Counted from the stretch's first letter, positions 41,463 through 62,864 are shown. The stretch: DNA of 64,000 bases from an uncultured Flavobacteriaceae bacterium (GCA_913043275.1 CAJWLL010000008.1:1-64000), one strand, 5' to 3'. Notes: a model not told the origin generated them from the sequence alone. Numbers and translations are program-made.

Positions 41463-41888
41463 ATGAGTAAACCAAAAGCGATAATAGTTTCTGGATATTT
41501 TAACCCCCTTCATAAGGGGCATATAGAACTCTTTCATAATGCCAAAGAAAAAGGCGATGAGCTTTTTGTGATTGTAAATAATGACCATCAAAGAGGTCTT
41601 AAAGGCTCCAAAGAGTTTATGAGTGAAAATGAGCGAGTTTTAATTGTCAGTGAACTTAAAATCGTTGATAAGGTTTTCTTATCCATTGATCAGGAAGGAA
41701 CAGTATGTGGTTCAATCGAAAAAATTTTCAAAGAATTTGGTAATTTTTACGATCTGTATTTTGCTAATGGTGGTGACCAGAATAATGATATATGTCCTGA
41801 GCTTCCGCTTTGTAATAAATATGGAATTGGTCTTATTGATGGATTAGGAGATAAGATACAATCTTCATCTTGGCTATTAAAAAAATAA
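41463..41888 (+). CDS. cytidylyltransferase-family nucleotidyltransferase (HIGH motif)
   Basis: IIVSGYFNPLHKGHIELFHNAKEKGDELFVIVNND. Confidence 0.88.
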   Translation: MSKPKAIIVSGYFNPLHKGHIELFHNAKEKGDELFVIVNNDHQRGLKGSKEFMSENERVLIVSELKIVDKVFLSIDQEGTVCGSIEKIFKEFGNFYDLYFANGGDQNNDICPELPLCNKYGIGLIDGLGDKIQSSSWLLKK

Positions 41889-43235: not shown

Positions 43236-44393
43236 ATGATACCCTACGGGAGGCAAAATATTATTGACGAGGATGTTGAGGCTGTTATTAAAATCTTAAA
43301 ATCAGACTATCTAACACAGGGACCCACAACTCCAATTTTTGAAAATAATCTTAAAGAATACACAAATACCAAATATTCAGTTGCTCTAATTAATGCTACA
43401 TCTGCACTTCATATTGCATGCTTGTCTTTGGGGCTAAGTAAGGGAGATTTTTTATGGACTTCACCAATTTCATTTGTTGCATCAGCCAATTGTGCTAGGT
43501 ATTGTGGCGCAGAAATCGATTTTGTTGACATTGATTCTTCATCGTATAATTTATGCCCAATAGCCCTAGAAGAAAAATTAATTCAGGCAAAAAAAAACAA
43601 GAGATTGCCTAAAATAATTATACCAGTTCATCTTTCAGGACAATCTTGTGAAATGAAAAGAATCAAAGAACTTTCAGACCAATATGGATTTAAAATTATA
43701 GAAGACGCTTCACATGCAATAGGAGGTGAATATAGAGGTAAAAAAATAGGTAATTGTGAATATTCTGACATCACTGTCTTTAGTTTTCATCCTGTAAAAA
43801 TTATTACCACTTGTGAAGGAGGGGCATGTATGACAAATCAAAAGAAAATTTATAAAAACTTACAAAGTTTACGAAGTCATGGTATTACAAGAGATCCAAT
43901 TGAAATGATTAACAAAAAGCCTGGAGAGTGGTATTATGAACAAATTCAATTAGGGTTTAATTATAGGCTTAATGATCTTCAAGCAGCTTTAGGCATTAGT
44001 CAATTAAAAAGGGTAGATGAATTTGTGAGAGAGAGAAATTCTATTGCAAATTATTATAATAAAATTTTTAAGGGACACCAATTTGTTAGGACACCTAAAT
44101 TAATAAATGATGTCTACTCTTCATATCACTTGTATATAATTAGGGTTGATTCTATTAAAAGGAAAAATATTTTTGATAGATTAAGAAATTCTGGGGTCTT
44201 TGTAAATATACATTATATTCCTATTTATAAGCATCCTTATTACAAAGACATCGAAAGTTCAAGCTTAACTAACTCAGAAAACTATTATAAAGAAGCAATT
44301 AGTATTCCAATATTTCCATTTTTAAAAAAGGAAATGCTTGATCAAATAAAAAAAGTAATTGATGAAGTAGATAATTTTCAAAGCATATTTTAA
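43236..44393 (+). CDS. DegT/DnrJ-family aminotransferase, PseC-like
   Basis: MIPYGRQNIIDEDVEAVIKILKSDYLTQGPTTPIFE..NATSALHIACLSLGLSKGDFLWTSPISFVASANCARYCGA..VFSFHPVKIITTCEGGA. Confidence 0.88.
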   Translation: MIPYGRQNIIDEDVEAVIKILKSDYLTQGPTTPIFENNLKEYTNTKYSVALINATSALHIACLSLGLSKGDFLWTSPISFVASANCARYCGAEIDFVDIDSSSYNLCPIALEEKLIQAKKNKRLPKIIIPVHLSGQSCEMKRIKELSDQYGFKIIEDASHAIGGEYRGKKIGNCEYSDITVFSFHPVKIITTCEGGACMTNQKKIYKNLQSLRSHGITRDPIEMINKKPGEWYYEQIQLGFNYRLNDLQAALGISQLKRVDEFVRERNSIANYYNKIFKGHQFVRTPKLINDVYSSYHLYIIRVDSIKRKNIFDRLRNSGVFVNIHYIPIYKHPYYKDIESSSLTNSENYYKEAISIPIFPFLKKEMLDQIKKVIDEVDNFQSIF

Positions 44394-45263
44394 TTGGAGA
44401 AAAAACTTATTCTTGGGACCACGCAATTTGGTTTAAGTTATGGAATTAATAATAAAGTTGGCCAAATTTCAAACAATGAAGCAGCTAAGATTCTTGATTA
44501 TGCTTATGAAAAAGACTTAGTCATCCTTGATACAGCACCTGTTTACGGAAATTCGGAGAAATTAATTGGAGATTATTTGAAAAAAAACAAGCATAAGGAA
44601 TTTAGAATCATAACAAAAATTAGTAGTAATAAAGAGTCCTTATCACAACAATTTTTAAAATCTCTTCAAAATATGAGGGTTGAAAAAGTTAATACTATAC
44701 TTTTCCATTCAATTGAATTATATAAACATTTTAAATCAGAAATAAATTCTTTTTTAGAAAAATTTAAGGGGAGTAGATTCAATGAACTAGGGGTTTCATT
44801 ATACACAAATGACGATATAATTTCTGTGATTGGTGATAAAAGAATTGACAGAGTTCAAGTCCCATTTAATTTGCTTGATAATGCTTCAAAAAGGGAATCT
44901 GTTTTTTTAGAATTAAAAGCAGACTCAAAAAAAGTTGATACTCGATCGATATTTTTGCAGGGTTTGTTCTTTAAGCCTCCCCCAGAAATACCATTCTTTT
45001 TCAATCCAATTCGAGAGGAATTGTTTTCTTTACACAAACTTAGCAAGGATTTTCGAATATCAATAAATTGTATTGCTTTAACATATGCAATTCAAAAGAA
45101 TTATATTGACTCTGTTCTAATAGGAGTTGATTCATTTAACCATCTGAAAAAAAATCTTTCTTCAATTAATAATGAGATTCCAAAAGAATTATCAAACATA
45201 ATTGACTCAATTAATATTAAAGATGAGCACATACTAAACCCAAGTTTATGGCCAAAATTTTAA
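44394..45263 (+). CDS. aldo/keto reductase
   Basis: LILGTTQFGLSYGINNKVGQIS..AAKILDYAYEKDLVILDTAPVYGNSEKLIGDYL; TTG start. Confidence 0.88.
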   Translation: MEKKLILGTTQFGLSYGINNKVGQISNNEAAKILDYAYEKDLVILDTAPVYGNSEKLIGDYLKKNKHKEFRIITKISSNKESLSQQFLKSLQNMRVEKVNTILFHSIELYKHFKSEINSFLEKFKGSRFNELGVSLYTNDDIISVIGDKRIDRVQVPFNLLDNASKRESVFLELKADSKKVDTRSIFLQGLFFKPPPEIPFFFNPIREELFSLHKLSKDFRISINCIALTYAIQKNYIDSVLIGVDSFNHLKKNLSSINNEIPKELSNIIDSINIKDEHILNPSLWPKF

Positions 45264-45988
45264 TAGTAACTCAAGCAAGGCTTCAAAGTACAAGACTACC
45301 CAAAAAAATCTTAAAGGAAATTAATGGGAAGAGTTTACTTCGAATTCATTTAAAGAGCTTAAGTAAATCAAAATACTATAAAAATCTAGTTGTAGCTACT
45401 ACCATGGAAAAAGGGATAAAAAAGATTATCGATTGCCTTAAAAGAATGTCTATAAAATACTATCAAGGAAGTGTCCATGATGTTTTAGATAGATATTATA
45501 GAGCATCTTTACCGCACAACCCAGATTATATTGTAAGAGTAACTTCAGATTGTCCTCTTATTGATGCTAGTTTGATGGATGAAATTATTGATTATGCAAT
45601 TGACAAAAACGTTGATTATGTTTCAAATAATTTAATTGAGCAATATCCAGATGGTCAAGATGTTGAAATTATATCCGCGAATGCTCTTCAAATTGCATGG
45701 GAAAGAGCAGAAAGTATTCATGACAGGGAAAATGTAACACCATTTATAAAAAATAATTCGACTTTTTTTGGTCATAATTTATTTACTTCTGAGAATTTCT
45801 CGTGCAATCAAAATTATAATCATATAAGAATGACAGTAGATGAACAGAGTGATTTTGATGCAATTAAGGTACTTATAAATAACTTGGGTTTTGGAAGAGA
45901 CTGGGGTACTTATACAAGGTTCATAGATGATAACCAATATCTATTTAAAAATCAACAAATAATTAGGAATGAGGGCAGTAAATTATAA
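45248..45988 (+). CDS. cytidylyltransferase domain protein (SpsF/PseF-like)
   Basis: ILIVTQARLQSTRLPKKILKEINGKSLL..YIVRVTSDCPLIDASLMDEII. Confidence 0.88.
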   Translation: MAKILIVTQARLQSTRLPKKILKEINGKSLLRIHLKSLSKSKYYKNLVVATTMEKGIKKIIDCLKRMSIKYYQGSVHDVLDRYYRASLPHNPDYIVRVTSDCPLIDASLMDEIIDYAIDKNVDYVSNNLIEQYPDGQDVEIISANALQIAWERAESIHDRENVTPFIKNNSTFFGHNLFTSENFSCNQNYNHIRMTVDEQSDFDAIKVLINNLGFGRDWGTYTRFIDDNQYLFKNQQIIRNEGSKL

Positions 45989-46002
45989 ATTTAGTTTAAG
46001 CT

Positions 46003-47313
46003 ATGGGAAAAGGACAAGATCTATATAAGTATGCAAAAAAATTAATACCTGGGGGGACAATGTTATTGTCAAAAAGACCCGAGATGTTCCTACCTGGGGG
46101 TTGGCCTTCATACTTTTCAAAAACAAAAGGTTGTTGTGTTTGGGATCTTGAGGGAACCAAATATACAGATGTGAGCATCATGGGCATTGGGACAAATACA
46201 TTGGGTTATTCACATCCAAAGGTAGACAGGGCAGTTTACAAGACAATAAAGAAAGGAAATTTAAGTACTTTAAATTGTCCAGAAGAGGTCATACTTGCAG
46301 AGAAATTAATTGAAATTAACCCGTGGGCAGATATGATTAGATATGCGAGGACTGGAGGGGAAGCAAATGCAATAGCAATAAGGATTGCAAGAGCTGCTTC
46401 AGGAAAAAATAAAGTGGCTATTTGTGGTTATCACGGCTGGCATGATTGGTATCTATCTGTTAACCATAATTCCAAAGGGGATTCTTTAAGTAATCATTTA
46501 CTGCCAGATATAGATACCCTAGGGGTTCCTGATGAACTAAAAAATACAGTTTTCCCTTTTCTATATAATAATTATGATCAACTTTTGAATATTGTAAATG
46601 AAAATGATATAGGAATTATTAAAATGGAGGTTGTAAGAAACATTCCTCCTGAGAAAAATTTTTTACAAAAGGTAAGGGCTCTATCAAAACAGAAAAATAT
46701 AATACTCATTTTTGATGAATGTACGTCTGGTTTTAGAGAAACATTTGGCGGTATTCATCAAAAATATAATGTAGAACCAGATATAGCCATGTACGGTAAG
46801 ACATTAGGAAATGGATATGCAATTACTGCTGTAGTTGGAAAGAGAGAAATTATGGAAGCTGCACAAAAAACCTTTATAAGCAGCACTTTTTGGACAGAGA
46901 GAATTGGTCCATCTGCCGCTATATCTTCTCTTGAAGTAATGAAAAAAGAAAGGTCATGGGAAAGGATATCAACTACTGGAGAAAGAATACAAAAAAATTG
47001 GAAGCTGATTTCTGAACGTCAAAAAATCAATATCAAAATACAAGGGATACCAGCATTATCCACATTTAGTTTTGAGCACTCAGATCACCTAAAGTTCAAA
47101 ACTTTTCTTTGTCAAGAACTTTTAAAAAATGGTTATTTGGGTACCACAGCATTTTATTCAAGTATCTCACATTCAGAAAAAATTTTAAATAGATATTTTG
47201 AGGTTTTAGAAGAGATATTTTATGAAATTTCGAAATGTATCAATGGGAGTGCAGATATTAATAATATGCTTAAATATCCCATTGCTCATTCTGGTTTCAG
47301 CCGTCTAAATTGA
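46003..47313 (+). CDS. class III aminotransferase (glutamate-1-semialdehyde aminomutase-like)
   Basis: LIPGGTMLLSKRPEMF; GGEANAIAIRIARAASGKNKVAICGYHGWHDWY; IFDECTSGFRE; MYGKTLGNGYAI. Confidence 0.9.
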   Translation: MGKGQDLYKYAKKLIPGGTMLLSKRPEMFLPGGWPSYFSKTKGCCVWDLEGTKYTDVSIMGIGTNTLGYSHPKVDRAVYKTIKKGNLSTLNCPEEVILAEKLIEINPWADMIRYARTGGEANAIAIRIARAASGKNKVAICGYHGWHDWYLSVNHNSKGDSLSNHLLPDIDTLGVPDELKNTVFPFLYNNYDQLLNIVNENDIGIIKMEVVRNIPPEKNFLQKVRALSKQKNIILIFDECTSGFRETFGGIHQKYNVEPDIAMYGKTLGNGYAITAVVGKREIMEAAQKTFISSTFWTERIGPSAAISSLEVMKKERSWERISTTGERIQKNWKLISERQKINIKIQGIPALSTFSFEHSDHLKFKTFLCQELLKNGYLGTTAFYSSISHSEKILNRYFEVLEEIFYEISKCINGSADINNMLKYPIAHSGFSRLN

Positions 47314-47876
47314 AAATGGATACACAAAATTATTATACACTAAAAAAACAAAATTTTCAATTTGGTATTTATAAATTAATTCCAATTCGGTTTGAAGATC
47401 GATATAAAATAATGGAATGGCGTAATGAGCAATTATATCATTTACGCCAACCAAAACCACTCACAAAATCAGAACAGGATTATTATTTTAAAAATGTAGT
47501 AATACCCCAGAAAACACAAAAAACCCCAGACCAAATATTATTTAGTTTTTTAAAAAAAGATAACCTGGTTGCTTACGGCGGATTGGTTCACATAAATTGG
47601 ATTGACAAAGATGCTGAAATCTCGTTTGTAATTAAAACATCTATTGAAAAGAATAATTTTATAAGTTTTTGGAATATCTATTTAAAACTCATCGAAGATG
47701 TTGCATTTAATTTTTTAAAATTCAAAAAAATTTATATTTATTCTTTTGATGTTAGACCGTTACTTTACAATATAACAAAACAAAATAATTATAAACATGA
47801 GTCTACTTTAGAGCAACACGTAAAAGTTGAAAATATTTTTGTAGATGTACATATTCATTCTAAATTAAAACAGTGA
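47310..47876 (+). CDS. GNAT-type N-acetyltransferase (PseH-like)
   Basis: FGIYKLIPIRFEDRYKIMEWRNEQLYHLRQPKPLTKSEQDYYFKN. Confidence 0.75.
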   Translation: MKMDTQNYYTLKKQNFQFGIYKLIPIRFEDRYKIMEWRNEQLYHLRQPKPLTKSEQDYYFKNVVIPQKTQKTPDQILFSFLKKDNLVAYGGLVHINWIDKDAEISFVIKTSIEKNNFISFWNIYLKLIEDVAFNFLKFKKIYIYSFDVRPLLYNITKQNNYKHESTLEQHVKVENIFVDVHIHSKLKQ

Positions 47877-48517
47877 AGAATTTAAAAATTCAAATATTGA
47901 TCGATAATCCAAATTCATGGATGTGGCAATATGTAGATAGAATCGAAAGTGAAATTTTAAAATACAACTCTTATTGTGAAATAATCGATAAATCTAAAAA
48001 GGTAAAAAAAGGTGATATATTAATTCTCTTATCATGTGAACAAATATTCAAAAAATTAAATCTTAATAAATTCAATTTAGTCGTTCATGCGAGTAATTTG
48101 CCAAGAGGTAAAGGATTTTCACCTGTAACATGGCAAGTTTTAGAGGGGAAAAATAAAATTCCAATTTGTTTGTTAGAAGCAGATGAAAAAGTAGATTCGG
48201 GAGGTATATTTTTTAAAGATTATATTGAACTTGAAGGACACGAATTAATTAATGAAATAAGGGAAAAGCAGTTTTTTAAAACACTAGAACTAATTACAAG
48301 ATTTATAAATGGCAAGGATTATCCAAAAAAAACCTTACAATCTGGTGTAGAATCATTTTACAGAAGAAGAAATAAAGAAGATAGTATTATTGATACAAAT
48401 CAAACGATATCTTCATTATTTAATAAATTAAGAACTGTGGACAATATTAGGTATCCTGCATATTTCAATTTTAAAGGGTATAAGTATTTGATAAAAATTG
48501 AAAAAATTAAAAATTAA
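47873..48517 (+). CDS. formyltransferase-family protein
   Basis: FNLVVHASNLPRGKGFSPVTWQVLEGKNKIPICLLEADEKVDSGGIFFKD. Confidence 0.8.
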   Translation: MKNLKIQILIDNPNSWMWQYVDRIESEILKYNSYCEIIDKSKKVKKGDILILLSCEQIFKKLNLNKFNLVVHASNLPRGKGFSPVTWQVLEGKNKIPICLLEADEKVDSGGIFFKDYIELEGHELINEIREKQFFKTLELITRFINGKDYPKKTLQSGVESFYRRRNKEDSIIDTNQTISSLFNKLRTVDNIRYPAYFNFKGYKYLIKIEKIKN

Positions 48518-48541
48518 TACTTTTAAACTTAAAACTTTCTT

Positions 48542-48670
48542 TTGACCGAAGCTAATCTAATATTGAGTTCAAATTCTATTTATCATAGTTTATTGAAAAA
48601 CTTAAATTTAAAATCAGATCTTGAATGGGTTTATTTAGACAATAAAAATTTGATGAAGCGTTCCAAATAA
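48542..48670 (+). pseudogene. possible gene remnant
   Basis: Open frame LTEANLILSSNSIYHSLLKNLNLKSDLEWVYLDNKNLMKRSK* without ATG, in the only sizeable gap of a packed operon. Confidence 0.35.
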
Positions 48671-48688
48671 TTAGAACAAAATATTAAA

Positions 48689-49723
48689 ATGGATTTTAAT
48701 TTTAAAAGGGTATTTATAGTAGCAGAATTATCTGCTAATCATGGAGGTGATATAAATATAGCTATTGATTCAATAAAAGCAGCAAAAAAATCTGGAGCGG
48801 ATGCTATTAAATTACAGACCTATACTCCAAATACTATGACCATTGATTCAAAAAAAAAAGATTTTATAGTAAATGGTGGAAGTATATGGGATGGTCAAAC
48901 TTTTTTTGACTTGTATGAAAAAGCACATACTCCATGGGAATGGCATTTTGAACTTTTTAAAGTTGCCAGAGAAGAAGGACTAGAGTATTTTTCAACACCC
49001 TTTGATAAAAAAGCTGTTGATTTGCTCGAAGAGTTGGATAATCCTATTTATAAAATTGCTTCATTTGAAATAAATGATATACCTCTAATAAAATATGTAG
49101 CATCAAAAGGTAAACCCATGATATTATCTACAGGAGTTGCTACTATTGAAGACATTAAATTAGCGCTTGATACAATTAGAGCTGAAGGTAATAACCAAAT
49201 AGCATTATTAAAATGCACTTCCAGCTATCCTGCCCCTATAAATGAAGCCAATTTACTAATGATTAGGGACTTTAAACAAAAATTTAAAGTAGTCACAGGT
49301 CTTTCTGATCATACAATAAGTAATACTTCTGCTATTGTAGCAACCTCGCTTGGGGCAAAAATTATCGAAAAGCATTTTATTCTGGACAAATCTATTGGAG
49401 GACCTGATGCTTCATTTTCACTTGATGCGAAAGAATTCTCCAACATGGTTAATGCAGTAAGAGAAACTGAATCAGCAATTGGTGAAATAGATTACGAACT
49501 TACCAAAAAGCAAAAGTTAGGAAAAATATTTTCAAGATCTTTATATGTTGTCAAGGATTCAAATAAAGGTGAAATAATTACAGATGAAAATATACGGTCT
49601 ATAAGGCCAGGATTTGGAGGACATCCAAAATATTTGGATAAATTAATTGGGAAACAATTTAAAAATAATTTTAAAAGAGGCGATAGATTTACAAATGATG
49701 ATATTAAGGGTCATTTAAAATGA
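48689..49723 (+). CDS. NeuB/PseI-type nonulosonate synthase
   Basis: VFIVAELSANHGGDINIAIDSIKAAKKSGADAIKLQTYTPNTMTID; C-terminal SAF domain. Confidence 0.9.
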   Translation: MDFNFKRVFIVAELSANHGGDINIAIDSIKAAKKSGADAIKLQTYTPNTMTIDSKKKDFIVNGGSIWDGQTFFDLYEKAHTPWEWHFELFKVAREEGLEYFSTPFDKKAVDLLEELDNPIYKIASFEINDIPLIKYVASKGKPMILSTGVATIEDIKLALDTIRAEGNNQIALLKCTSSYPAPINEANLLMIRDFKQKFKVVTGLSDHTISNTSAIVATSLGAKIIEKHFILDKSIGGPDASFSLDAKEFSNMVNAVRETESAIGEIDYELTKKQKLGKIFSRSLYVVKDSNKGEIITDENIRSIRPGFGGHPKYLDKLIGKQFKNNFKRGDRFTNDDIKGHLK

Positions 49724-50451
49724 AAAAGATAGCTGCTATAATTGAAGCTCGAATGACATCAAGTAGACTTCCAGGTAAAGTCCTACTAGAATCAGGAATT
49801 AATAAACCGCTATTACTTTGTTTAATTGAAAGAATTAGAAAAGTAAAAAACATTGATCAAATAATAATTGCAACAACAACGAATAGTCAGGATAACAAAA
49901 TTGTAGAATTTTGTAAAGAAAATAAAATCAATTTTTTTAGAGGGAGTGAAAACGATGTTATGGCTAGAGTTTTAAATGCCTCACTAAAATTTGAAGTTGA
50001 TATTATTATTGAAATTACAGGTGATTGCCCAATTATAGACCCTGAAATAATAAGCTTAGTTTTAAACACACATTTAGAAAACCAATATGACTACACTTCT
50101 AATTGCAATTTTAGATCTTTTCCAGACGGCATGGATGTGCAAGTTTTTTCGACTAAAATACTTTCAAATTCATATAAATTAGTAAAAACTAAATTGGAAA
50201 AAGAGCATGTAACTTTAGAAATAAGAAAGTCATCTAAATATTCTAAAATCAATTTAGTAGCTCCACAAAATTATTTTTTACCAGACCTAGGACTAACTTT
50301 AGATGAAGAAGGAGATTATCTTTTGATTTCTTCTTTGTTCAAACACTTTAAAAATAATGATTTTGGGTTGAAACAAATTTTAGATTTCCTTAAAGAAAAG
50401 AATCAACTCATAGAACTTAACAAAAATGTGGTTAGAAAAGGAGACACTTAA
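49720..50451 (+). CDS. cytidylyltransferase domain protein (SpsF-like)
   Basis: IAAIIEARMTSSRLPGKVLLESGINKPLLLCLIERI..IIIEITGDCPIIDPEII. Confidence 0.88.
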   Translation: MKKIAAIIEARMTSSRLPGKVLLESGINKPLLLCLIERIRKVKNIDQIIIATTTNSQDNKIVEFCKENKINFFRGSENDVMARVLNASLKFEVDIIIEITGDCPIIDPEIISLVLNTHLENQYDYTSNCNFRSFPDGMDVQVFSTKILSNSYKLVKTKLEKEHVTLEIRKSSKYSKINLVAPQNYFLPDLGLTLDEEGDYLLISSLFKHFKNNDFGLKQILDFLKEKNQLIELNKNVVRKGDT

Positions 50452-51316
50452 AAACACAAAACTAGGAGTAATTTTATGTGACGCGGGAGGTACCTTCCAT
50501 ACCATTTCATTGTTGGAGGAATTTAAAATAAAACCGAATTTTTATTGTGATGGACCTTCACTTGAAATTCTTAAATTTTCAGAGCCAAAGAAATCTCTCA
50601 AACAATTTATCAGTGATAATGATTTAATTTTGACATCTAATAGCTGGTCTTCAGATATTGAACTCAGAGCTATTAAGGAGGCAAAACATAAAGGGAAGAA
50701 AGTATTTACAGTCCTAGACCATGTTGTTAATTTCGATAATAGATTTATTTTAAATGGCGAACTTTTATTACCAGATTCTATCATCTTATTTGACAATGAA
50801 TCATTTATAAAAGCTAAAGAAATTTTTGGGAAATATGATGTCAGTTTATATCAGTGCAAATCAAATTATTTTTTAAATAAATTTCTTAATGAAATAAAAA
50901 TCAACAGTCCGAAAAAAAACTTTATACTTTATATAGATGAACCTATTAAGGATCACTATGAAAAAATGTTAAAAAATAAATTTGAATATAGGGGCTTTAA
51001 TGAATACACAGGAATAAATTTTTTTATGGAGAAAATAAAAGAGACAAAGTTTGAAAAATTTAATATTGACATTAAATTACACCCATCTTCAAAAGCCAAC
51101 AAATATGACTATTTAAGGCATGATCAAATTAAAATTTTGAATCCAAAAATAAAATTTGAGAGTATAATATCTGCATATAATTTTGTAGTTGGCTATGAAT
51201 CAATGGCCCTTTATCTTGCAACTAAAATTGAGCCAAGAATTAATGTCTATTCATTAATCCCTCCTTTCGTAAAAGACAAAAATATTTTTAACTTAAACTC
51301 TTTTTATGATCTTTAA
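50426..51316 (+). CDS. hypothetical protein, possible GT-B-like/polysialyltransferase-like protein
   Basis: FNIDIKLHPSSKANKYDYL..NFVVGYESMALYLATKIEPRINVYSL; no confident family. Confidence 0.5.
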   Translation: MWLEKETLKNTKLGVILCDAGGTFHTISLLEEFKIKPNFYCDGPSLEILKFSEPKKSLKQFISDNDLILTSNSWSSDIELRAIKEAKHKGKKVFTVLDHVVNFDNRFILNGELLLPDSIILFDNESFIKAKEIFGKYDVSLYQCKSNYFLNKFLNEIKINSPKKNFILYIDEPIKDHYEKMLKNKFEYRGFNEYTGINFFMEKIKETKFEKFNIDIKLHPSSKANKYDYLRHDQIKILNPKIKFESIISAYNFVVGYESMALYLATKIEPRINVYSLIPPFVKDKNIFNLNSFYDL

Positions 51317-52256
51317 CGTTGCTTTGTTTGGTTTAGGGAATGTGGGATTTAAATACGATAAATATGCCAAAAATAAATCTTATTTAACTCATTATTCAAC
51401 AATTAAAAACCTAGATGGTTTTAAGCTTAGCTTAGCTATTGACAATGACAAAAATAATAGAAAAGAATTTGAAAAAATTACCAAGATCAAAGCAATTTCT
51501 ACAGATGAATTACCAAGAGGGAATAAAAAAATTGATATAGTAATAATAGCAACACCACTTAAAACTCATATTGAGATAATTAAAAAGGCAGTTATTTTGA
51601 AGCCTAAGTTTATCTTATGTGAAAAACCTCTTTCTTTATCAAATATTGAAACAAAGGATATAATTAAGTTATGTTCCTTTAACAAAATTAATTTGGAACT
51701 TAATTATTTTAGAAGATTTGAAAAATCAGCTGTAGAAATTAAAAAAAAATTAAACAACATTTCTTTTTTTAGAGCGACGGTCTTTTATTCTAATGGATTT
51801 ATTAATAACGGATCTCACTTTTTAGATCTAATAACCTATTGGTTTGGGAAACCAAAAAACATTTTTTTGAAAAAACAAAACGGAATATTAACAAAGTCTT
51901 ACAAAGATTATGACCTGGATTTTGAATTAAATTATGGGATTGGGGATGTGAATTTCTTTTCTTGGAAAGAAAATCTTTATTCAAACTATAGCATAAGAAT
52001 TTATACAGATTTATTTAAAATAGACTACGATATTAACGGTTATAAAACTACAATGCATAGTAGGATTGATGATCCAGAATATAAAGGTTTTAAAAGATTA
52101 AATGAGGAATCAATAATCATCAAAAATAATTTAAGTAATGGGTTTAAGCCTATATACTTAAAAATTTATTCTAACATGGAGAAAATGGTTGAAACGGATT
52201 TTAATAAAATTCAAATTGTGCCAAAAATAATTAATCGAATTTTAAAACAAATATGA
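51306..52256 (+). CDS. Gfo/Idh/MocA-family oxidoreductase
   Basis: NVALFGLGNVGFKYDKY..DIVIIATPLKTHIEIIKKAVILKPKFILCEKPLS. Confidence 0.88.
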   Translation: MIFNVALFGLGNVGFKYDKYAKNKSYLTHYSTIKNLDGFKLSLAIDNDKNNRKEFEKITKIKAISTDELPRGNKKIDIVIIATPLKTHIEIIKKAVILKPKFILCEKPLSLSNIETKDIIKLCSFNKINLELNYFRRFEKSAVEIKKKLNNISFFRATVFYSNGFINNGSHFLDLITYWFGKPKNIFLKKQNGILTKSYKDYDLDFELNYGIGDVNFFSWKENLYSNYSIRIYTDLFKIDYDINGYKTTMHSRIDDPEYKGFKRLNEESIIIKNNLSNGFKPIYLKIYSNMEKMVETDFNKIQIVPKIINRILKQI

Positions 52257-53530
52257 AAAATAGACTAGCCATCCTTGGAGGAGAAAAAACTATAAACCAT
52301 TCTTTCAAAAGGTTTAATACAATTGGTGATGAAGAAATAAATGCGGTGGTTAAAGTCATGAAATCAGGTGTGCTATCAAGCTTTTTGGGATCCTGGTCTC
52401 CCGAATTTTATGGAGGGAAATATGTCAAAGCTTTAGAAAAAGCTTTTGAAAAAAAATATAATGTTAAATATGCGTTAGCCGTTAACTCATGGACCTCAGG
52501 ACTAATATGTGCAGTTGGAGCTCTTGATATAGAGCCAGGCGATGAGATTATTTTAACTCCTTTTACTATGTGCGCTTGTGCTTCAGCAATAATACATTGG
52601 AATGCAATACCAGTATTCGTAGATATAGATGAAGACACTTTTAATATTGACCCTAGCTTAATTGAAAATCACATCACAAAAAAAACAAAAGCAATAATAG
52701 CTGTTGATATTTTTGGACATCCATGTGAAATATCAAAAATTATGAGAATTGCAAAAAAACATAATCTTAAAGTTATTTCTGATTCAGCTCAATCACCGTG
52801 GTCCAAAAATCAAGATAGGGTAATTGGAACACAATCTGATATTGGTGGATACAGTCTAAATTATCACAAACATATCCATACCGGTGAAGGTGGAATAATA
52901 GTTACAAATGATCAAAATTATTATCAAAGAATGGCACTAATACGGAATCATGCTGAAGCAGTTGTTGGTGATATGGGGAGAATGGATCTAAACAACATGA
53001 TTGGATATAATTTTAGAATGGGTGAAATAGAAGCTGCTATTGGTATAGAACAATTAAAAAAATTAGAAAGCATCGTTCAGAGAAAACAGGAAATATGCAA
53101 TTTATTATCACAAGGGCTAAGTTTCTTGGATGGGCTTATCACCCCATATATAAATAAAAAAAATACACATTCATTCTATGTTTATCCCATAAAATTAGAT
53201 AAGTTAAAAATAAGGGTATCTAGAGAAAGAATAGTTGAAGCATTAATTGAAGAAGGAATATATGAAGGATTAGCAAATGGTTACGTAAATCTTCATTTAC
53301 TACCAATTTTTCAAAAAAAAATTGCATATGGTAAAAGTGGTTATCCTTGGAATTTAACCCAAAACGGAAAAACCATTTCATATAAAAAAGGAATTTGTCC
53401 TGTCGCAGAAAAACTCCAAGATGAGACTTTAATAATGTTTGAGGTTTGTTTATTTGAACTTTCAAACTCAGATATAGAGTTAATTATCAAAGCTTTTAAA
53501 AAAGTATGGAAAAACCTAGATAAACTGTGA
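52253..53530 (+). CDS. DegT/DnrJ/EryC1/StrS-family aminotransferase
   Basis: YALAVNSWTSGLICAVGALDIEPGDEIILTPFTMCACASAIIHWNAIPVFVDIDEDTFNIDPSLI; YSLNYHKHIHTGEGGIIVTND. Confidence 0.92.
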   Translation: MKNRLAILGGEKTINHSFKRFNTIGDEEINAVVKVMKSGVLSSFLGSWSPEFYGGKYVKALEKAFEKKYNVKYALAVNSWTSGLICAVGALDIEPGDEIILTPFTMCACASAIIHWNAIPVFVDIDEDTFNIDPSLIENHITKKTKAIIAVDIFGHPCEISKIMRIAKKHNLKVISDSAQSPWSKNQDRVIGTQSDIGGYSLNYHKHIHTGEGGIIVTNDQNYYQRMALIRNHAEAVVGDMGRMDLNNMIGYNFRMGEIEAAIGIEQLKKLESIVQRKQEICNLLSQGLSFLDGLITPYINKKNTHSFYVYPIKLDKLKIRVSRERIVEALIEEGIYEGLANGYVNLHLLPIFQKKIAYGKSGYPWNLTQNGKTISYKKGICPVAEKLQDETLIMFEVCLFELSNSDIELIIKAFKKVWKNLDKL

Positions 53531-53702
53531 ATATAATACTAATTAATAAAGCAGAAGATTTTTCAAAGATTAATGAAATCAATGCAGATCTCGCTTAGAC
53601 AAAGTATACTGGTGTAAAAGTCTTAGAAAATTAAAACTTTAAATACAGTAACAAAGCTAAAACCTAAATAAAATTTAGAAAAGGCCTAGCATAAAATAAC
53701 TT
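53527..53702 (+). pseudogene. possible decayed gene between DegT and formyltransferase genes
   Basis: GTG overlapping upstream stop (gtga), VNIILINKAEDFSKINEINADLA* then stops in all frames. Confidence 0.35.
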
Positions 53703-54380
53703 ATGGAAATATCATTAATAATGAATCAAAATTCATATGTTGGAAGAGAATACTTAGAGGCATTGAAAAAAGAAGACATAAAAGTAGATGTGTTATCTAT
53801 TGGCCTACATCCAGAGAGAGATTTAATAGAGGAAGAACGTTGCGGTAAATTATGGTCTCCAAAAGACCAAGTGAGTTTAGCCAAATACCATTATTTCTAT
53901 AATTTCCCCCACTTAAAATCAAAACAACTAAATAGGTTTTTAATTATGAAAAAATACGATTTGGGGATCCAAGGAGGTACAGATATAATAAAGGAAAATA
54001 TCATTGATAAATACAAATTAGGTATCTTAAATTTTCACCCAGGTCTTCTCCCTCAATATAGAGGTTGTAGTGCACCAGAATGGCAAATTTACGAAAATAA
54101 AAATGTTTATTCGACTTGTCATATTATTGATAAAGGAATTGATACAGGCAAAATTGTTGCAAAAAAACAATTAAACACAAATTATAAAAGCTATTACCAT
54201 TTTAGAGCATCTATATATAAAGAAATTTCTATTTTCTTAGTTAATACAATTAAGAATATTATAGAAAATAAGGGTTTTGTTAATAAACCATATAATCAGG
54301 AGGAGAAAATAGCAGTTTATAGAAAATATATTGGAAAAAAAAAAATTGACTACATCAAAAAAAATTATTTCAATGAGTAA
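53703..54380 (+). CDS. formyltransferase-family protein
   Basis: KLGILNFHPGLLPQYRGCSAPEWQIYENKNVYSTCHIIDKGIDTGKIV. Confidence 0.88.
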   Translation: MEISLIMNQNSYVGREYLEALKKEDIKVDVLSIGLHPERDLIEEERCGKLWSPKDQVSLAKYHYFYNFPHLKSKQLNRFLIMKKYDLGIQGGTDIIKENIIDKYKLGILNFHPGLLPQYRGCSAPEWQIYENKNVYSTCHIIDKGIDTGKIVAKKQLNTNYKSYYHFRASIYKEISIFLVNTIKNIIENKGFVNKPYNQEEKIAVYRKYIGKKKIDYIKKNYFNE

Positions 54381-54415
54381 AATTTGACAAATTTTATAAA
54401 AAATTATAGTTAACG

Positions 54416-54952
54416 ATGCTAAATAAAAAATTTATTGTTTTTGATAGGGATGGAACTTTAATAAAATATGTTCCTTATTTAAGTAATCCGTCGTCCGTAG
54501 AATTAATTCCCGGTGTAAAGGAATTTATAAATAATTTACTCAAAAACTCCAATAAACTTTTCTTACATACAAACCAATCTGGCGTAAGCAGAGGATTATT
54601 TAATATTCAAGAAGTTATAAAATGTAATGAAAGATTATTTGAATTATTAGGATTTGGGGATGACTTATTTGAAAGAATTTGTATTGCTACAGAATTAAGT
54701 TTATCTAATAATTCCTATCGTAAACCCTCACCAAGATTTGCAAATGAAATAATCAATGATTACGAAATCGATAAAAGTGATTTATTTTATATTGGAGATA
54801 ATATTTCTGATCTTGAAACAGCTAATAATACTGGATGCAATGCATATGGTATTCTTAATAAAAAATTAAATTATAGTGTTGAAAACAACACTTTGGGATA
54901 TAGAATTTTTAAAAACATTATAGATCTAAATAACTTTTTATATGAAAACTAA
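54416..54952 (+). CDS. gmhB: D,D-heptose 1,7-bisphosphate phosphatase-like HAD protein
   Basis: FIVFDRDGTLIKYVPYLSNPSSVELIPGVKEFI..TNQSGVSRGLF..KPSPRFANEII..YIGDNISDLETA. Confidence 0.8.
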   Translation: MLNKKFIVFDRDGTLIKYVPYLSNPSSVELIPGVKEFINNLLKNSNKLFLHTNQSGVSRGLFNIQEVIKCNERLFELLGFGDDLFERICIATELSLSNNSYRKPSPRFANEIINDYEIDKSDLFYIGDNISDLETANNTGCNAYGILNKKLNYSVENNTLGYRIFKNIIDLNNFLYEN

Positions 54953-56306
54953 TTTAGAAAAATATTGTATATCATTTTCATCTACAATTAAAGAGGCAAT
55001 TGAAAAAATTGAAATTAATGAAGAAGGATTTATTTTAATTATTAATGAAAAAAATGTTCTTCTTGGAATAGCTACAGATGGAGATATTAGAAGGCATTTG
55101 ATAAAAAAAGGAGTATTAAATGATAAAATAGTGGAATGTTCAAATAAAAATTTCATAAGTGTTGATCAAAAAACTTCTTATGAAGAAATTTATAAAATGC
55201 TAGATGATAATATTAAGTTACTACCAGTTTTAAACAACAAAAAGGTTTTAGTAAATGTTATTACCAAAAAAAATATTCCAGAAAGACAACAAAGAGATTA
55301 TTACAGTAGGGCAAAAGCTCCAGTTAGAATTAGTTTTAGCGGAGGTGGATCTGACACCACATCTTATTTGAAAAATAATAATGGAGCTGTAATAAACACA
55401 ACTATATCCCTTTTCAGTCATTGTTCATTAAAAAAAAGGGAAGATAAAAAAATCATCATTGATTCAATTGATTTAAATCAAAATAGTAGTTTTCAGGACT
55501 TAAATCAAATGAATTCAAATCCAGGAAAATTTAAACTAATAAATGCATTATTGAATACAATTAATCTTGATCATGGCGTAGAACTCTCTTTAAAGTCTGA
55601 CTTCCCTTTTTCATCAGGATTAGGGGGGTCTTCAGCAGTTTGTGCTTCAATATTGGGTTGCTTCAATGAGTTTAGAAATGACAAATGGGATGAATATGAA
55701 ATCTCTGAATTAGCTTACCAAGCCGAAAGATTATATCTAGGTATTGAAGGAGGTTGGCAAGATCAATATGCAACGGTTTTCGGAGGCTTCAACTTGATGG
55801 AATTTAAATCAAAAAATAATTTGGTAATCCCGATAAGGATATCAAACGAAAAAAAATTAGAGCTCGAAGCATCACTTATTCTTTGTTATACAAATAGTAA
55901 TCATTTAGATTTAAACATACACCACAATCAAAAAAATAATTTAGTAAACAAATTAGTTCTAAAAAATATTTCAAAAAGCGTTCACTTAACTTATGAAATT
56001 AGAGATCATTTATTAAAAGGTGAAATAAATAAAATGGGCCAGTCTTTAAATAAATCTTGGGAATTAAAGAAAACTTTTAGCAATAAGATTTCCAATGAAA
56101 AACTCAATATTATATATCAAAAAGCAATTTTAAATGGAGCTAAAGGGGGGAAACTTTTAGGTGCTGGTGGAGGTGGTTTTTTTCTTTTTTTTGTTGACAT
56201 TGAAAATAAAAATAAATTGATTAAATGGATTTTAAAAGCAAAAATGACTTATATAAATGTAAACTTTGAAAATGAAGGGATGACTTCATGGAGCGTAAGG
56301 GTTTAA
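54942..56306 (+). CDS. tandem CBS domains fused to GHMP sugar kinase (HddA-like heptose kinase)
   Basis: CBS: ILIINEKNVLLGIATDGDIRRHLIKKG; kinase: RAKAPVRISFSGGGSDTTSYLKNNNGAVIN, PFSSGLGGSSAVCASILGC, GAKGGKLLGAGGGGFFLFF. Confidence 0.85.
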   Translation: MKTNLEKYCISFSSTIKEAIEKIEINEEGFILIINEKNVLLGIATDGDIRRHLIKKGVLNDKIVECSNKNFISVDQKTSYEEIYKMLDDNIKLLPVLNNKKVLVNVITKKNIPERQQRDYYSRAKAPVRISFSGGGSDTTSYLKNNNGAVINTTISLFSHCSLKKREDKKIIIDSIDLNQNSSFQDLNQMNSNPGKFKLINALLNTINLDHGVELSLKSDFPFSSGLGGSSAVCASILGCFNEFRNDKWDEYEISELAYQAERLYLGIEGGWQDQYATVFGGFNLMEFKSKNNLVIPIRISNEKKLELEASLILCYTNSNHLDLNIHHNQKNNLVNKLVLKNISKSVHLTYEIRDHLLKGEINKMGQSLNKSWELKKTFSNKISNEKLNIIYQKAILNGAKGGKLLGAGGGGFFLFFVDIENKNKLIKWILKAKMTYINVNFENEGMTSWSVRV

Positions 56307-56308
56307 CT

Positions 56309-58198
56309 ATGAAAATAGGAAATAATATTATTGGACAAAAAAAAGTTTTTGTGATAGCAGAAATTGGAAATAATCACAATGGTAGCTTTGAATTGGCTTT
56401 GAAAATGATTGATCAATCAATTGAAATTGGAGTTGATTGTGTTAAATTTCAAATGAGAAAATTGAATGAAGTATATAGAAGCAAGAGTTTAAACAAATTA
56501 GGTGATGATTTAGGAACCGAATATACAATCGATTTACTTAGTAGATTTGAGTTAAGTATTGAGGAGCACAGAAAGATCTTTAATTATTGTAAAGAAAAAG
56601 GGATACTTTATATGTGTACACCTTGGGATTTAAAAAGTGTAGAAATTTTAGAAGATCTTGGAGTTTTAGCATATAAAATTGCATCTGCAGATTTGACAAA
56701 TATACCACTAATAGAAAAGCTTATTAAAACTAAAAAACCTTTGATTTTGTCAACTGGTATGAGCACTCTTAGTGAAATTAAAAAAACAGTTAATCTCCTA
56801 AACACTAATAAATCTGAATTTGCAGTCTTACATTGTAACAGTACATATCCTGCTCCATTTCATGATATAAATCTAAATTGGATATCAAATTTAAAATTAG
56901 AACATAATATTATAGGATATTCAGGACACGAAAGAGGCACAAGTGTTTCTATTGCTGCAGTCGCATTAGGGGCAAAAATAATTGAAAGACACTTTACTTT
57001 GGATAGGAAAATGGAAGGTCCTGATCATGCAGCAAGTCTTGAATTTGATGAATTTGTTGATTTAGTTAAAGGAATAAGACAAGTTGAAGAAGCATTAGGG
57101 TCAAAATCTACAGAAAGGAAACTTAGCCAAGGTGAAATGATAAATAGAGAAAATTTAGGTAAAAGTCTAGTTGCTTCAAGGGAAATAAAGGATGGAGATA
57201 TAATCTCTGAACAAGACATAAAAATTGTTAGTCCTGGGCAGGGTCTGTCTCCTCATTATAAAAATGAATTGATTGGAGTAAAAATTACGAGAAATATTGA
57301 ATCAGAGGATTTTTTCTTTAAATCAGATATTTATGGAAAGAGAGAATTCAAAAAGAATTATAATTTTTCATTAAAATGGGGTGTACCTGTAAGATATCAT
57401 GATTTTCAAAAGTTTAATGATATGATAAATCCAGATTTTTTTGAATTTCATTTATCCTATAGCGATATGGAATTGAAAATAGAAGATTATATAAGAGATA
57501 AATATAATTGTGGATTCGTTGTCCATGCCCCAGAGCTTTATGAAGGAAGCCATCTTATGGACTTAACAACAGATGATAATGAATATTTAAAGTTTTCAAT
57601 TTTACAAACCCAAAAAGTAATTGATATTACTAGAAAATTAAATGGATTTTTTCCAAATGAACTAAATCCTAAAATTGTTGCTAATATTGGAGGCTTTTCA
57701 ATGGATAAGCCATTTGATGAAAACAAAAAAAATGAACATTATGATCGTTTTTTTAGTAATCTTAAAAAGCTAGATATGGAAGGCGTGGAAATAATTCCTC
57801 AAACCATGGCACCTTTTCCTTGGCATTTTGGAGGACAACGATATCAAAATCTTTTTGTTCATGTAGATGAAATTATTAAATATTGTAATGAGTTCAATAT
57901 TAAAATGTGTTTTGATGTTTCACATAGTATGCTAACCTCAAATTATTTCCAATATGATTTTTATGAATTTGCAAAAAAAATTGCGCCATACACCACTCAC
58001 ATTCATATGGGAGACGCTTCAGGGTTGAATGGTGAGGGGTTACAAATAGGTGATGGGATTATTGATTTTAATCGTCTTGGCGAGATATTAATTTCTGGTG
58101 CAAGCAAATCAACTTTTATACCTGAAATTTGGCAGGGGCACAAAAATGACGGAGAAGGATTCTTTATTGCATTAGAAAGATTGGAAAATAAAATATAA
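56309..58198 (+). CDS. NeuB-like synthase with SAF domain fused to TIM-barrel sugar isomerase-like domain
   Basis: VFVIAEIGNNHNGSFELALKMIDQSIEIGVDCVKFQMRK; SAF; then MCFDVSHSMLTSNYF..APYTTHIHMGDASGLNGEGLQIGDGIIDF. Confidence 0.9.
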   Translation: MKIGNNIIGQKKVFVIAEIGNNHNGSFELALKMIDQSIEIGVDCVKFQMRKLNEVYRSKSLNKLGDDLGTEYTIDLLSRFELSIEEHRKIFNYCKEKGILYMCTPWDLKSVEILEDLGVLAYKIASADLTNIPLIEKLIKTKKPLILSTGMSTLSEIKKTVNLLNTNKSEFAVLHCNSTYPAPFHDINLNWISNLKLEHNIIGYSGHERGTSVSIAAVALGAKIIERHFTLDRKMEGPDHAASLEFDEFVDLVKGIRQVEEALGSKSTERKLSQGEMINRENLGKSLVASREIKDGDIISEQDIKIVSPGQGLSPHYKNELIGVKITRNIESEDFFFKSDIYGKREFKKNYNFSLKWGVPVRYHDFQKFNDMINPDFFEFHLSYSDMELKIEDYIRDKYNCGFVVHAPELYEGSHLMDLTTDDNEYLKFSILQTQKVIDITRKLNGFFPNELNPKIVANIGGFSMDKPFDENKKNEHYDRFFSNLKKLDMEGVEIIPQTMAPFPWHFGGQRYQNLFVHVDEIIKYCNEFNIKMCFDVSHSMLTSNYFQYDFYEFAKKIAPYTTHIHMGDASGLNGEGLQIGDGIIDFNRLGEILISGASKSTFIPEIWQGHKNDGEGFFIALERLENKI

Positions 58199-58640
58199 TG
58201 ATTAATAATTTAAAACTTGAAATTAGAAATTCTATAGATGTAAAACAGCAACTATATAATAATACTAACGAATTAGGTAAAATAGAAATCCTTTACCAGC
58301 AATATGTTTAGGAACAAATTCATCCAATTTAACAGCAATAGCCAATGATTATGGTTACAAAAACATTTTTTTAAGAGAGATGTTAGCTATAGGAGAAAAA
58401 GGAGATCTTTTTATTCCAATAAGTACAAGTGGAAACAGTGAAAATATACTTGAAGTAATAAAAGAAGCAAAGAAAATGGGAATAAATATTATTGGTTTAA
58501 CAGGTAAATTGGGTGGTAAAATGAGTCAAATTTGTGATACAATAAATATTCCTTCATTGATTACTGAAAAAATTCAAGAATGTCATATTATGGTTGGTCG
58601 CATAGTTTTTGCTCAAATAGAAAAAATTTTATTTCAATGA
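58198..58640 (+). pseudogene. SIS-domain phosphoheptose isomerase (GmhA-like) with internal deletion/frameshift
   Basis: N-term MINNLKLEIRNSIDVKQQLYNNTNELGKIEI.., then in another frame LPAICLGTNSSNLTAIANDYGYKNIFLREMLAIGEKGDLFIPISTSGNSENILEVIKEAK; GNGGSAADAQH segment missing. Confidence 0.75.
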
Positions 58641-59485
58641 ATTGTTATTTGTGTAGGAGTGAAAATTTTAAAATTGTGAACGAGGGGACTAGAGATAAAA
58701 ATAACATATCTGTTATTGAATGTATGAATTGTGGTTTAGTTACACTTGATTCTCACAAGCACATAGATGAAACTTTTTATAGAGATTCTAAAATGCATTC
58801 AACTAAAATTAAAATATCAAATTGGTTGGAGGAGACTCAAATTGACGATAATCGTAGAATTAAATTTTTGAAAGAGAAAATTACAAATAAAAAAATTTTA
58901 GATTTTGGATGTGGTAATGGAGGATTTTTATTAAAAGCTAATAGTTTAACAAACGAAGCAAAAGGGATAGAACCAGAAATGCAGTTTAAGTCTTTTTTTA
59001 AAAAAAATAATCTTAAAGTGCTTAATTCATTAATTGACTTACCCCCTGAGAAGTTTGATTTAATTACAGCTTTCCATGTATTTGAGCATCTAAAAGATCC
59101 AATTCAAATGCTTTCTAATCTTAAGCATTTTCTCGGGACCAAATCAGAAATAATAATAGAAGTACCAAATTCCGACGATGCTCTTTTGACTTATTATCAA
59201 TCCAAAAAATTTGCAAATTTCACATACTGGAGCCAACATTTATTTTTGTTTAATGAAAAAACTTTAGAAAATTTATTTATTAAATCAAATTATAAAATCA
59301 ACTGGATTAAACAAATACAAAGATATCCTTTATCAAATCATTTGTATTGGCTTTCAAAAGGATTGCCTAACGGACACAAAATTTTTACTGCAATGAGCGA
59401 TACAAAATTAAATTTTGAATACGAAAAAATATTAAAACGCGAAAAAATATGCGATACTCTTTTAGCTTCAATTAGCCTAAACTAA
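58637..59485 (+). CDS. class I SAM methyltransferase with N-terminal zinc-binding motif
   Basis: MNCYLCRSENFKIV..CMNCGLV; ILDFGCGNGGFLLKA; ITAFHVFEHLKDP; ATG at 58637 overlaps SIS stop. Confidence 0.88.
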   Translation: MNCYLCRSENFKIVNEGTRDKNNISVIECMNCGLVTLDSHKHIDETFYRDSKMHSTKIKISNWLEETQIDDNRRIKFLKEKITNKKILDFGCGNGGFLLKANSLTNEAKGIEPEMQFKSFFKKNNLKVLNSLIDLPPEKFDLITAFHVFEHLKDPIQMLSNLKHFLGTKSEIIIEVPNSDDALLTYYQSKKFANFTYWSQHLFLFNEKTLENLFIKSNYKINWIKQIQRYPLSNHLYWLSKGLPNGHKIFTAMSDTKLNFEYEKILKREKICDTLLASISLN

Positions 59486-59516
59486 AAAACTTAAATAATT
59501 GAAAAATCACTAGGAA

Positions 59517-60350
59517 ATGAAAATTGGAGTTATGCAAGGAAGACTTCTACCAAAATATAAAGGTAGATATCAAGCCCATCCACAGGGATATTGGCAAAAA
59601 GAGTTTTTTTTGGCAAAAAAACTTGGGTTAGATTTTATTGAATTCATATTAGATTTTGAAGATTTTGAAAGAAACCCTTTACATACTGAAAGTGGAGTAA
59701 AACAAATATTAAATATTTCAAAAAAGACAGGAGTAGCTGTTAATTCAATTTGTGCTGATTACTTTATGCACGCCCCAATACATTCAGAGAATAAAAAATT
59801 ATCAAGAAAGAGCATTGATGTTTTAATCAAATTATTATTTAGTTCAAAAAAACTTAAAATCACTGATATTGTTATTCCTTGCGTAGATCAGTCAGCATTG
59901 AAAGGGGATAATGATATAGAGAGGCTTTTATATAATTTGAAATCACCCTTAATTTTAGCAAATAAATTCAACATCAACTTAGCTTTAGAGACTGATTTGC
60001 CACCACTAAAATTTAAAGATCTTTTGTCTAGGTTTGATAATTATAGAATTACTGTTAATTATGATCTTGGCAACAGTGCTTCATTAGGTTATAGAATTGA
60101 AGAGGAATTTGAAGCTTATGCTAGAAAAATTTCTTGTATTCATATTAAAGATAGGGTTCTAAATGGTGGTTCAGTTATTCTTGGTGATGGAGATGTGAAT
60201 TTCCAATATTTTAAAAATTTTTTAAAAAACTCGAGTTTTGATGGGCCTATAATTATGCAGGCTTACAGAGATGATGAAGGAGTCGAGATATTTTCTAAAC
60301 AGTTAAAATGGTTTAAAAATCTTTATTATGATTGCGGTAATTCCAGCTAG
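59517..60350 (+). CDS. sugar phosphate isomerase/epimerase (xylose-isomerase-like TIM barrel)
   Basis: KIGVMQGRLLPKYKGRYQAHP..LALETDLPP..VNYDLGNSASLGY..CIHIKDR. Confidence 0.85.
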   Translation: MKIGVMQGRLLPKYKGRYQAHPQGYWQKEFFLAKKLGLDFIEFILDFEDFERNPLHTESGVKQILNISKKTGVAVNSICADYFMHAPIHSENKKLSRKSIDVLIKLLFSSKKLKITDIVIPCVDQSALKGDNDIERLLYNLKSPLILANKFNINLALETDLPPLKFKDLLSRFDNYRITVNYDLGNSASLGYRIEEEFEAYARKISCIHIKDRVLNGGSVILGDGDVNFQYFKNFLKNSSFDGPIIMQAYRDDEGVEIFSKQLKWFKNLYYDCGNSS

Positions 60351-61044
60351 AAGCGGATCTAAAGGTGTTATAGATAAAAATATAAAAACATTGGATGGAA
60401 TGCCTTTATTGGCTTACAGCATCCTTTCGGCTAAGACAATACCATTAATAAAGAGAGTAATAGTTTCTACTGATTCTTTAAAATATGCTACAATTGCAAA
60501 AAAGTATGGGGCAGAAGTTCCTTTTTTGAGACCTAATGAGATATCCCAAGATAATTCCTCAGATTTTGATGTATTTAACCATTTGATAGATTGGCTTAAG
60601 CAAAATGAAGAGAACATACCAAATATATTTGTTCATCTTAGACCAACAACTCCATTAAGAGAAAGAGAAGTATTAATTGAAGCAATAAACCATTTCATAA
60701 AAAATAAACATAGGGCAACTTCACAAAGGTCATGTCATTTAGCACCAGAATCCCCATTTAAGTGGTTTTTTAAGGACGAAAAAGGGTATTTCAAAGCTTT
60801 AAAAAATGGACTTAACCCTGAGAATATTAATAAACCGAGACAAACATTTCCTGATGTTTATATTCCTAATGGATATATTGATTTAATTAAATCAAATAAT
60901 ATCCTTGAAAAAAATACGTTACATGGAGAAAAAATGTTGGTTTACGAAACTCCTTTTACCTTAGAGGTAGACACTGAAGATGATTTACAATATTTATCCT
61001 ATGCAAAAGAAAAAACTATAACAAAAAAAACATCAAAATCATAG
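60328..61044 (+). CDS. acylneuraminate cytidylyltransferase (NeuA-like)
   Basis: MIAVIPARSGSKGVIDKNIKTLDGMPLLAYSILSAK..VHLRPTTPLRE. Confidence 0.92.
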   Translation: MIAVIPARSGSKGVIDKNIKTLDGMPLLAYSILSAKTIPLIKRVIVSTDSLKYATIAKKYGAEVPFLRPNEISQDNSSDFDVFNHLIDWLKQNEENIPNIFVHLRPTTPLREREVLIEAINHFIKNKHRATSQRSCHLAPESPFKWFFKDEKGYFKALKNGLNPENINKPRQTFPDVYIPNGYIDLIKSNNILEKNTLHGEKMLVYETPFTLEVDTEDDLQYLSYAKEKTITKKTSKS

Positions 61045-61048
61045 ACAC

Positions 61049-62443: not shown

Positions 62444-62864
62444 CACTAGACATATTGGATTAGTTGTTAATAATTTGGATTCCACAATCAAATTCTACAA
62501 CTCTTTGGGATTTAAGGTTATAAACAGAAAAATTGAACAAGGTGAATATATTGAAAAGTTGGTTAAAATTAAGGATGTTAAATTGGAATGGGTTAAACTA
62601 AAACTAATTGATGATTCAATTTTAGAACTTTTAAAATATCACGGTAATGAAAAAAAATTGAATAAACCCCTTCAAAAGTCTAATAAATTTGGATGGTCTC
62701 ATATTTCATTTACTGTAAAATCAATAATTAACACAATAAAAATTATTAATGAAAATGGAGGTAAAGCTGACAATAATTTTCAGTTTTCACCCGATGGTAA
62801 AGTAAAGGTTTTATATTGTAATGACATTGAAGGAAACATATTAGAAATTGTTGAAGAAATTTAA
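62433..62864 (+). CDS. glyoxalase/VOC superfamily protein
   Basis: TRHIGLVVNNLDSTIKFYNSLGFKVINRKIEQG..SHISFTVKSI; ATG at 62433. Confidence 0.85.
   Translation: MVINTRHIGLVVNNLDSTIKFYNSLGFKVINRKIEQGEYIEKLVKIKDVKLEWVKLKLIDDSILELLKYHGNEKKLNKPLQKSNKFGWSHISFTVKSIINTIKIINENGGKADNNFQFSPDGKVKVLYCNDIEGNILEIVEEI

Follow-up and report, generated by a model that had tools for sequence, protein, structure and literature searches.

A diverged acetyltransferase-fold protein as a probable replacement of PseG in a pseudaminic acid gene module of Bacteroidota

How does a bacterium make a pseudaminic acid-like sugar from a gene cluster that encodes PseC and PseI, and neither PseB nor PseG? This question is raised by a locus in the 64,000 nt stretch of DNA analysed here (CAJWLL010000008.1:1-64000 of GCA_913043275.1, from an uncultured Flavobacteriaceae bacterium; referred to as the window). 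A first-pass annotation had described eight clustered genes of atypical composition at 43236-50451 and predicted an aminated, N-formylated nonulosonic acid-like product. An ORF check confirmed all eight ORFs at the stated positions; they are collinear and nearly contiguous (Table 1), and the absence of PseB and PseG from the window was borne out. Besides the gene content itself, the identification of PseC and PseI as members of their families is a direct result, since both proteins passed the cut-offs of NCBIfam equivalog models. The aldo/keto reductase (AKR), the two cytidylyltransferases (SpsF-a, SpsF-b) and the class III aminotransferase (AT3) gave matches at family level only. AT3 had been called GSAM-like: it matches the family PF00202, but stayed below the cut-off of every GSAM model (196 bits versus a cut-off of 527 for HemL). 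The source genome is a 2.0 Mb draft of 64 contigs with 88% completeness, and the 66.9 kb contig carrying the window ends 2.9 kb beyond it. The polysaccharide locus extends beyond 50451, and a separate NeuB-type cluster is found further downstream.

Table 1. Assigned and predicted features of the locus and of the second cluster downstream
Feature	Position	Strand	Basis
PseC	43236-44393	+	TIGR03588, 515 bits, cut-off 423 (NCBIfam equivalog, passed)
AKR, aldo/keto reductase, predicted to oxidise Pse at C8	44394-45263	+	PF00248; catalytic tetrad; EpaA precedent
SpsF-a cytidylyltransferase, predicted to activate the modified sugar with CMP	45248-45988	+	PF02348; nearest solved structure 6oew
AT3, class III aminotransferase, predicted to transaminate at C8	46003-47313	+	PF00202; orthologues in 29 loci
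GNATx, diverged PseH-fold protein, predicted UDP-sugar hydrolase replacing PseG	47310-47876	+	PseG alternation, loop loss, fold
N-formyltransferase in PseH slot, predicted C4-amine formylation (nonulosonate C7)	47873-48517	+	PF00551
PseI, pseudaminic acid synthase	48689-49723	+	TIGR03586, 488 bits, cut-off 340 (NCBIfam equivalog, passed)
SpsF-b, second cytidylyltransferase	49720-50451	+	PF02348; not conserved in the module
NeuB fused to xylose-isomerase-like TIM barrel (second cluster)	56288-58198
PseF-like synthetase (second cluster)	60328-61044
Second class III aminotransferase (second cluster)	61049-62443
Glyoxalase-fold protein (second cluster)	62400-62864

The cluster is a variant of the pseudaminic acid (Pse) module of Bacteroidota. 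In comparison to the CMP-Pse5Ac7Ac pathway of Helicobacter and Campylobacter (PseB, PseC, PseH, PseG, PseI, PseF), PseC and PseI correspond at equivalog level and the gene order follows the same logic, but GNATx takes the PseG slot, a formyltransferase takes the PseH slot and SpsF replaces PseF; PseB is outside the cluster, and AKR and AT3 are extra. The arrangement PseC-AKR-SpsF-AT3-...-PseI was found in about 30 other genomes and is therefore not due to chance. AT3 orthologues with 54-67% identity occur at 29 loci, nearly all from Bacteroidota, plus Devosia, and relatives with 40-67% identity were present in 13 other genomes of a 396-genome sample of the phylum. The conserved order is PseB-PseC-(PseH)-AKR-SpsF-AT3-(PseG or GNATx)-(PseH, formyltransferase, deacetylase)-PseI. 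As to the composition, the lack of PseB and PseG is indeed atypical, but the module as such is widespread in Bacteroidota and not unique to this genome. A plasmid collection contained three plasmids with AT3 and none with GNATx. On a Pseudosulfitobacter plasmid the neighbouring genes are annotated as pseB, pseC, AKR, GNAT, hypothetical protein, class III aminotransferase, pseG and pseI, and the class III aminotransferase is an SpsF-AT3 fusion.

The genome-wide search for pseB and pseG proposed by the first-pass annotation revealed no PseG above the cut-off in the draft, with a partial match of 24 bits only, and a PseG protein query gave nothing; a single FnlA-type enzyme on another contig was found as relative of PseB. 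In the sample of 396 Bacteroidota genomes, 56 encode PseI above the cut-off, and here we directly observed a strict alternation: PseG only was found in 47 genomes and GNATx only in nine, while no genome had both or neither (Fisher p = 1.3e-10). Two GNATx genomes (G170, G226) are single-contig assemblies with 99-100% completeness and no PseG. Among 41 genomes with AT3, PseG occurs in 21 and GNATx in 14; the two never occur together, and six genomes lack both. Exactly one of the two genes is present at 25 of the 29 AT3 loci. GNATx also holds the PseG slot in complete Pse operons without AT3, namely PseB-PseC-PseF-GNATx-PseH-PseI (L124), PseB-PseC-PseF-[GNATx+PseH]-PseI (L125) and PseB-PseC-PseF-GNATx-formyltransferase-PseI (L126). 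The standard form is PseB-PseC-PseF-PseG-PseH-PseI (L134), and both GNATx and PseG are found fused to PseH, in matching order. GNATx goes with the core Pse pathway and not with AT3; its occurrence in operons lacking AT3 also led us to reject a role as acetyltransferase for a new 8-amine. On a PseI tree the GNATx/PseG state changes at least six times, three times on well-supported branches, and the three independent pairs all go in opposite directions, but are too few for significance alone. The simplest reading is that GNATx probably performs the PseG step, with a predicted UDP-sugar hydrolase activity.

A search of 299 Pseudomonadota genomes, run with no positive control, gave no GNATx, and a scan of viral contigs with the GNATx pattern was negative as well. 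The literature searched, with most subscription journals outside its scope, contained no report of GNATx replacing PseG. Neither PseG nor GNATx was detected in two single-cell genomes (L041, L065). Judged by PseI, these two contain the closest cousins of the window cluster, and they have an extra NeuB-like protein before SpsF. Of the ORFs downstream in L041, inspected for a hydrolase, one is asparagine-synthase-like and one is without a match. In the window, the ORF at 50426-51316 was considered as a substitute for PseG and rejected, as GNATx better fills the gap. This 296 aa protein has no match in Pfam, NCBIfam or PDB, and an HP motif suggests a glycosyltransferase.

The product of 47310-47876 had been annotated as a PseH-like GNAT. 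Its predicted structure (pLDDT 89.7) has a PseH-like fold, with PseH of H. pylori (PDB 4ri1) as top Foldseek match and closest solved fold (TM 0.74-0.80), and Pfam Acetyltransf_4 matched 13 of 13 GNATx proteins. Identity to H. pylori PseH is as low as 15-17%, however, and the acetyl-CoA signature of PseH is missing; a reading as PseH is not supported. The acetyl-CoA loop GxGxA/G was present at the aligned position in none of 21 GNATx proteins, compared to 36 of 45 PseH-type GNATs from the same clusters. In the column of the catalytic Tyr or its equivalent, 20 of the 21 GNATx proteins have L, I, V or T and the remaining one has F, while all 45 controls have Y, F or S. This loss of motifs is a direct observation. 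GNATx proteins have invariant motifs of their own (WRNEQ-x-YHLRQ, YGGLVHINWxDxNAExSF, DxRPxxY), with R38, H44, R46, H94 and R149 among the invariant residues, and are not detected by the PseG model TIGR03590.

The GNAT fold, with PseH as closest relative, could also mean that GNATx transfers acyl groups from an unusual donor, that an unlinked general hydrolase removes UDP, and that the alternation reflects two versions of the pathway. One of the distant phage relatives of GNATx has even kept the acetyl-CoA loop. We regard this explanation as possible but rather unlikely: the loop is lost in all 21 GNATx proteins and the usual catalytic aromatic in 20 of them, a normal, loop-bearing PseH adjoins GNATx or is fused to it in most loci, and the alternation with PseG is complete across the 56 PseI genomes. 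Our preferred reading, with a rough probability of 0.5, is that GNATx represents a new class of UDP-sugar hydrolases with a PseH fold and lost acetyl-CoA binding, which assumed the role of PseG, the two having been exchanged several times in Bacteroidota, and which would here feed the synthesis of a new 8-amino, N-formyl Pse.

In regard to PseB, the sole relative in the 88% complete draft is the FnlA-type enzyme, which scored 510 bits with FnlA and 327 bits with PseB (cut-off 407.75), both below cut-off. Its gene is located at the start of contig C1 and adjoins FnlB- and FnlC-like genes; no end overlap between contigs C8 and C1, which would join the cluster to FnlA, was found. In four other clusters without adjacent PseB (L041, L044, L053, L065), FnlA-type enzymes with 313-320 bits are the only members of this class in the entire genome, and the FnlA-type gene lies within about 30 kb of the cluster together with an FnlC-like gene. 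Counting the window, each of the five PseB-less clusters examined is accompanied by an FnlA-type dehydratase encoded in its genome, in four cases no more than about 30 kb away. Since FnlA-type enzymes are able to make the substrate of PseC, a single dehydratase serving FucNAc and Pse is plausible.

The incompleteness of the draft, its 64 contigs and the end of the contig shortly after the window could also suggest that ordinary Pse is made and that PseB and PseG are just missing from the assembly. This is very unlikely, considering that PseG is missing from each of the eight other GNATx genomes in the 396-genome sample, the two single-contig assemblies among them, that the FnlA pattern recurs at the four other PseB-less clusters, and that AKR and AT3 are absent from ordinary Pse pathways. 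The GNATx/PseG alternation and an FnlA-type dehydratase able to supply the PseC substrate would together account for the atypical absences of the cluster.

For the additional genes, we compared the cluster to systems with known products. The catalytic tetrad of AKR (D, Y, K, H) is invariant across ten relatives. In Acinetobacter, EpaA, an SpsF-AKR fusion, converts Pse to 8-epi-Pse together with a short-chain dehydrogenase, as demonstrated by NMR (PMC12053666), and the AKR-SpsF pairing therefore points to action at C8. Both our cluster and EpaA-EpaB of Acinetobacter prophages (PMC12053666) pair a cytidylyltransferase with an aldo/keto reductase acting with Pse, but our cluster has a class III aminotransferase instead of the dehydrogenase EpaB; EpaA was likened by its description. 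Together, AKR and AT3 probably replace the hydroxyl at C8 of Pse with an amine: based on gene association and this precedent, the 8-ketone would be transaminated rather than reduced, leading to 8-amino-Pse. In the hexose precursor, the later C8 oxygen is part of the ring and so becomes accessible only once PseI has acted, in line with the recurrent fusions of the cytidylyltransferase with AKR or AT3 (AT3-SpsF in L053, L058-L060 and L067; AKR-SpsF in EpaA and in one Vibrio cluster). Among 41 PseI loci, AT3 is present at 29 and PseF at seven without any overlap. As the two never co-occur, SpsF-a is probably the CMP synthetase of the modified sugar. A phage collection searched for AKR, SpsF, AT3 and GNATx contained no EpaA-like record.

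The Pse cluster of Vibrio B9-25K2 (PMC7371886) likewise has PseC followed by AKR-SpsF, but as one fusion protein followed by a dehydrogenase, with PseB and PseG present and no AT3 described. The diacetyl-Pse of this strain shows odd retention time and fragmentation (PMC7371886). The fusion and the dehydrogenase resemble EpaA-EpaB, and 8-epi-Pse would explain this behaviour. An 8-amino nonulosonate is known from the O-polysaccharide of Flexibacter (Tenacibaculum) maritimum, 5-acetamido-7-(3-hydroxybutyramido)-8-amino-3,5,7,8,9-pentadeoxynonulosonic acid (PMC3210612). The extra amine is therefore not new chemically. Likened by sugar structure alone, this sugar of a member of the same phylum shares the predicted C8 amine on a Pse-type sugar, but carries 3-hydroxybutyryl where formyl is predicted here.

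The nearest known relatives of AT3 are glutamate semialdehyde enzymes, and AT3 also occurs in phage clusters without visible PseC, where a different transamination is possible. AKR and AT3 might accordingly produce an acyl group resembling an amino acid, or act on a different sugar, instead of aminating C8 of Pse. We consider this doubtful, because AT3 as well as AKR are found fused to SpsF, the site of action of EpaA is C8, and PseF is missing from AT3 clusters. C8 amination of Pse remains the preferred role of the two proteins.

In the window and in L045, L056 and L126, GNATx occurs without PseH and a formyltransferase occupies the PseH slot, pointing to the C4 amine (nonulosonate C7) as the site of N-formylation. 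The catalytic motif of the formyltransferase retains His and Asp, and has Val instead of the usual Asn. Two diverged loci (L128, L129) have neither PseH nor formyltransferase. A pair of formyltransferase and PIG-L-type deacetylase recurs between AT3 and PseI at five loci (L039, L042, L044, L046, L050) and may exchange N-acetyl for N-formyl. N-formylated Pse is already known, and the combination of 8-amino and N-formyl groups may be undescribed.

Taken together, we give an even chance to the view that the cluster makes a CMP-activated, 8-amino, N-formylated Pse derivative for a surface polysaccharide, with GNATx removing UDP. In step 1 of this route, the FnlA-type dehydratase encoded elsewhere in the genome would form UDP-4-keto-6-deoxy-L-AltNAc, the substrate of PseC, which would aminate C4 (step 2). 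The C4 amine would be formylated by the formyltransferase as replacement of PseH (step 3), and UDP would be removed by GNATx, with its PseH fold and lost acetyl-CoA site, as replacement of PseG (step 4). PseI would condense the sugar with phosphoenolpyruvate (step 5), AKR would oxidise the C8 hydroxyl and AT3 would aminate the resulting ketone (step 6), and SpsF-a would activate the product with CMP (step 7). We infer each of these catalytic steps, above all steps 1, 3, 4 and 6. An aminated and N-formylated nonulosonate, as predicted initially, is still the best prediction for the product, but its amination has the precedent in F. maritimum. That a diverged GNAT has probably replaced PseG is a stronger result than the idea of an undescribed sugar, which is only partly supported.

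If true, this would supply a missing step for many environmental Bacteroidota whose Pse pathway seems incomplete by annotation, and would reveal a hydrolase derived from an acetyltransferase fold. It would also suggest an origin of the 8-amine in the orphan Flexibacter sugar. Current libraries call GNATx only a generic GNAT acetyltransferase, and predictions of Pse-making bacteria would therefore change. By formula, 8-amino-Pse5Ac7Ac has the composition of known acetamidino nonulosonates, so that these sugars are not separable by mass alone.

Related gene sets were also seen in phages. IMG/VR viral contigs (L246, L247, L249, L251, L253-L256) carry PseB, AKR, SpsF, AT3 and a distant GNATx relative, several of them with PseI. 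PseC and PseG are not visible in these sets, and the acetyl-CoA loop is intact in at least one of the distant GNATx relatives. In the window, a second nonulosonate-like cluster (51306-62864) follows downstream. Besides the features listed in Table 1 it holds a DegT aminotransferase, a Gfo/Idh oxidoreductase and another formyltransferase. The regions 54416-56306 and 41463-41888 encode a GmhB-like HAD phosphatase, a fusion of a CBS domain and an HddA-like GHMP kinase, and a nucleotidyltransferase-like protein; the kinase was assigned by search, the phosphatase and the nucleotidyltransferase-like protein by eye. These genes are probably involved in the synthesis of activated D-glycero-D-manno-heptose.
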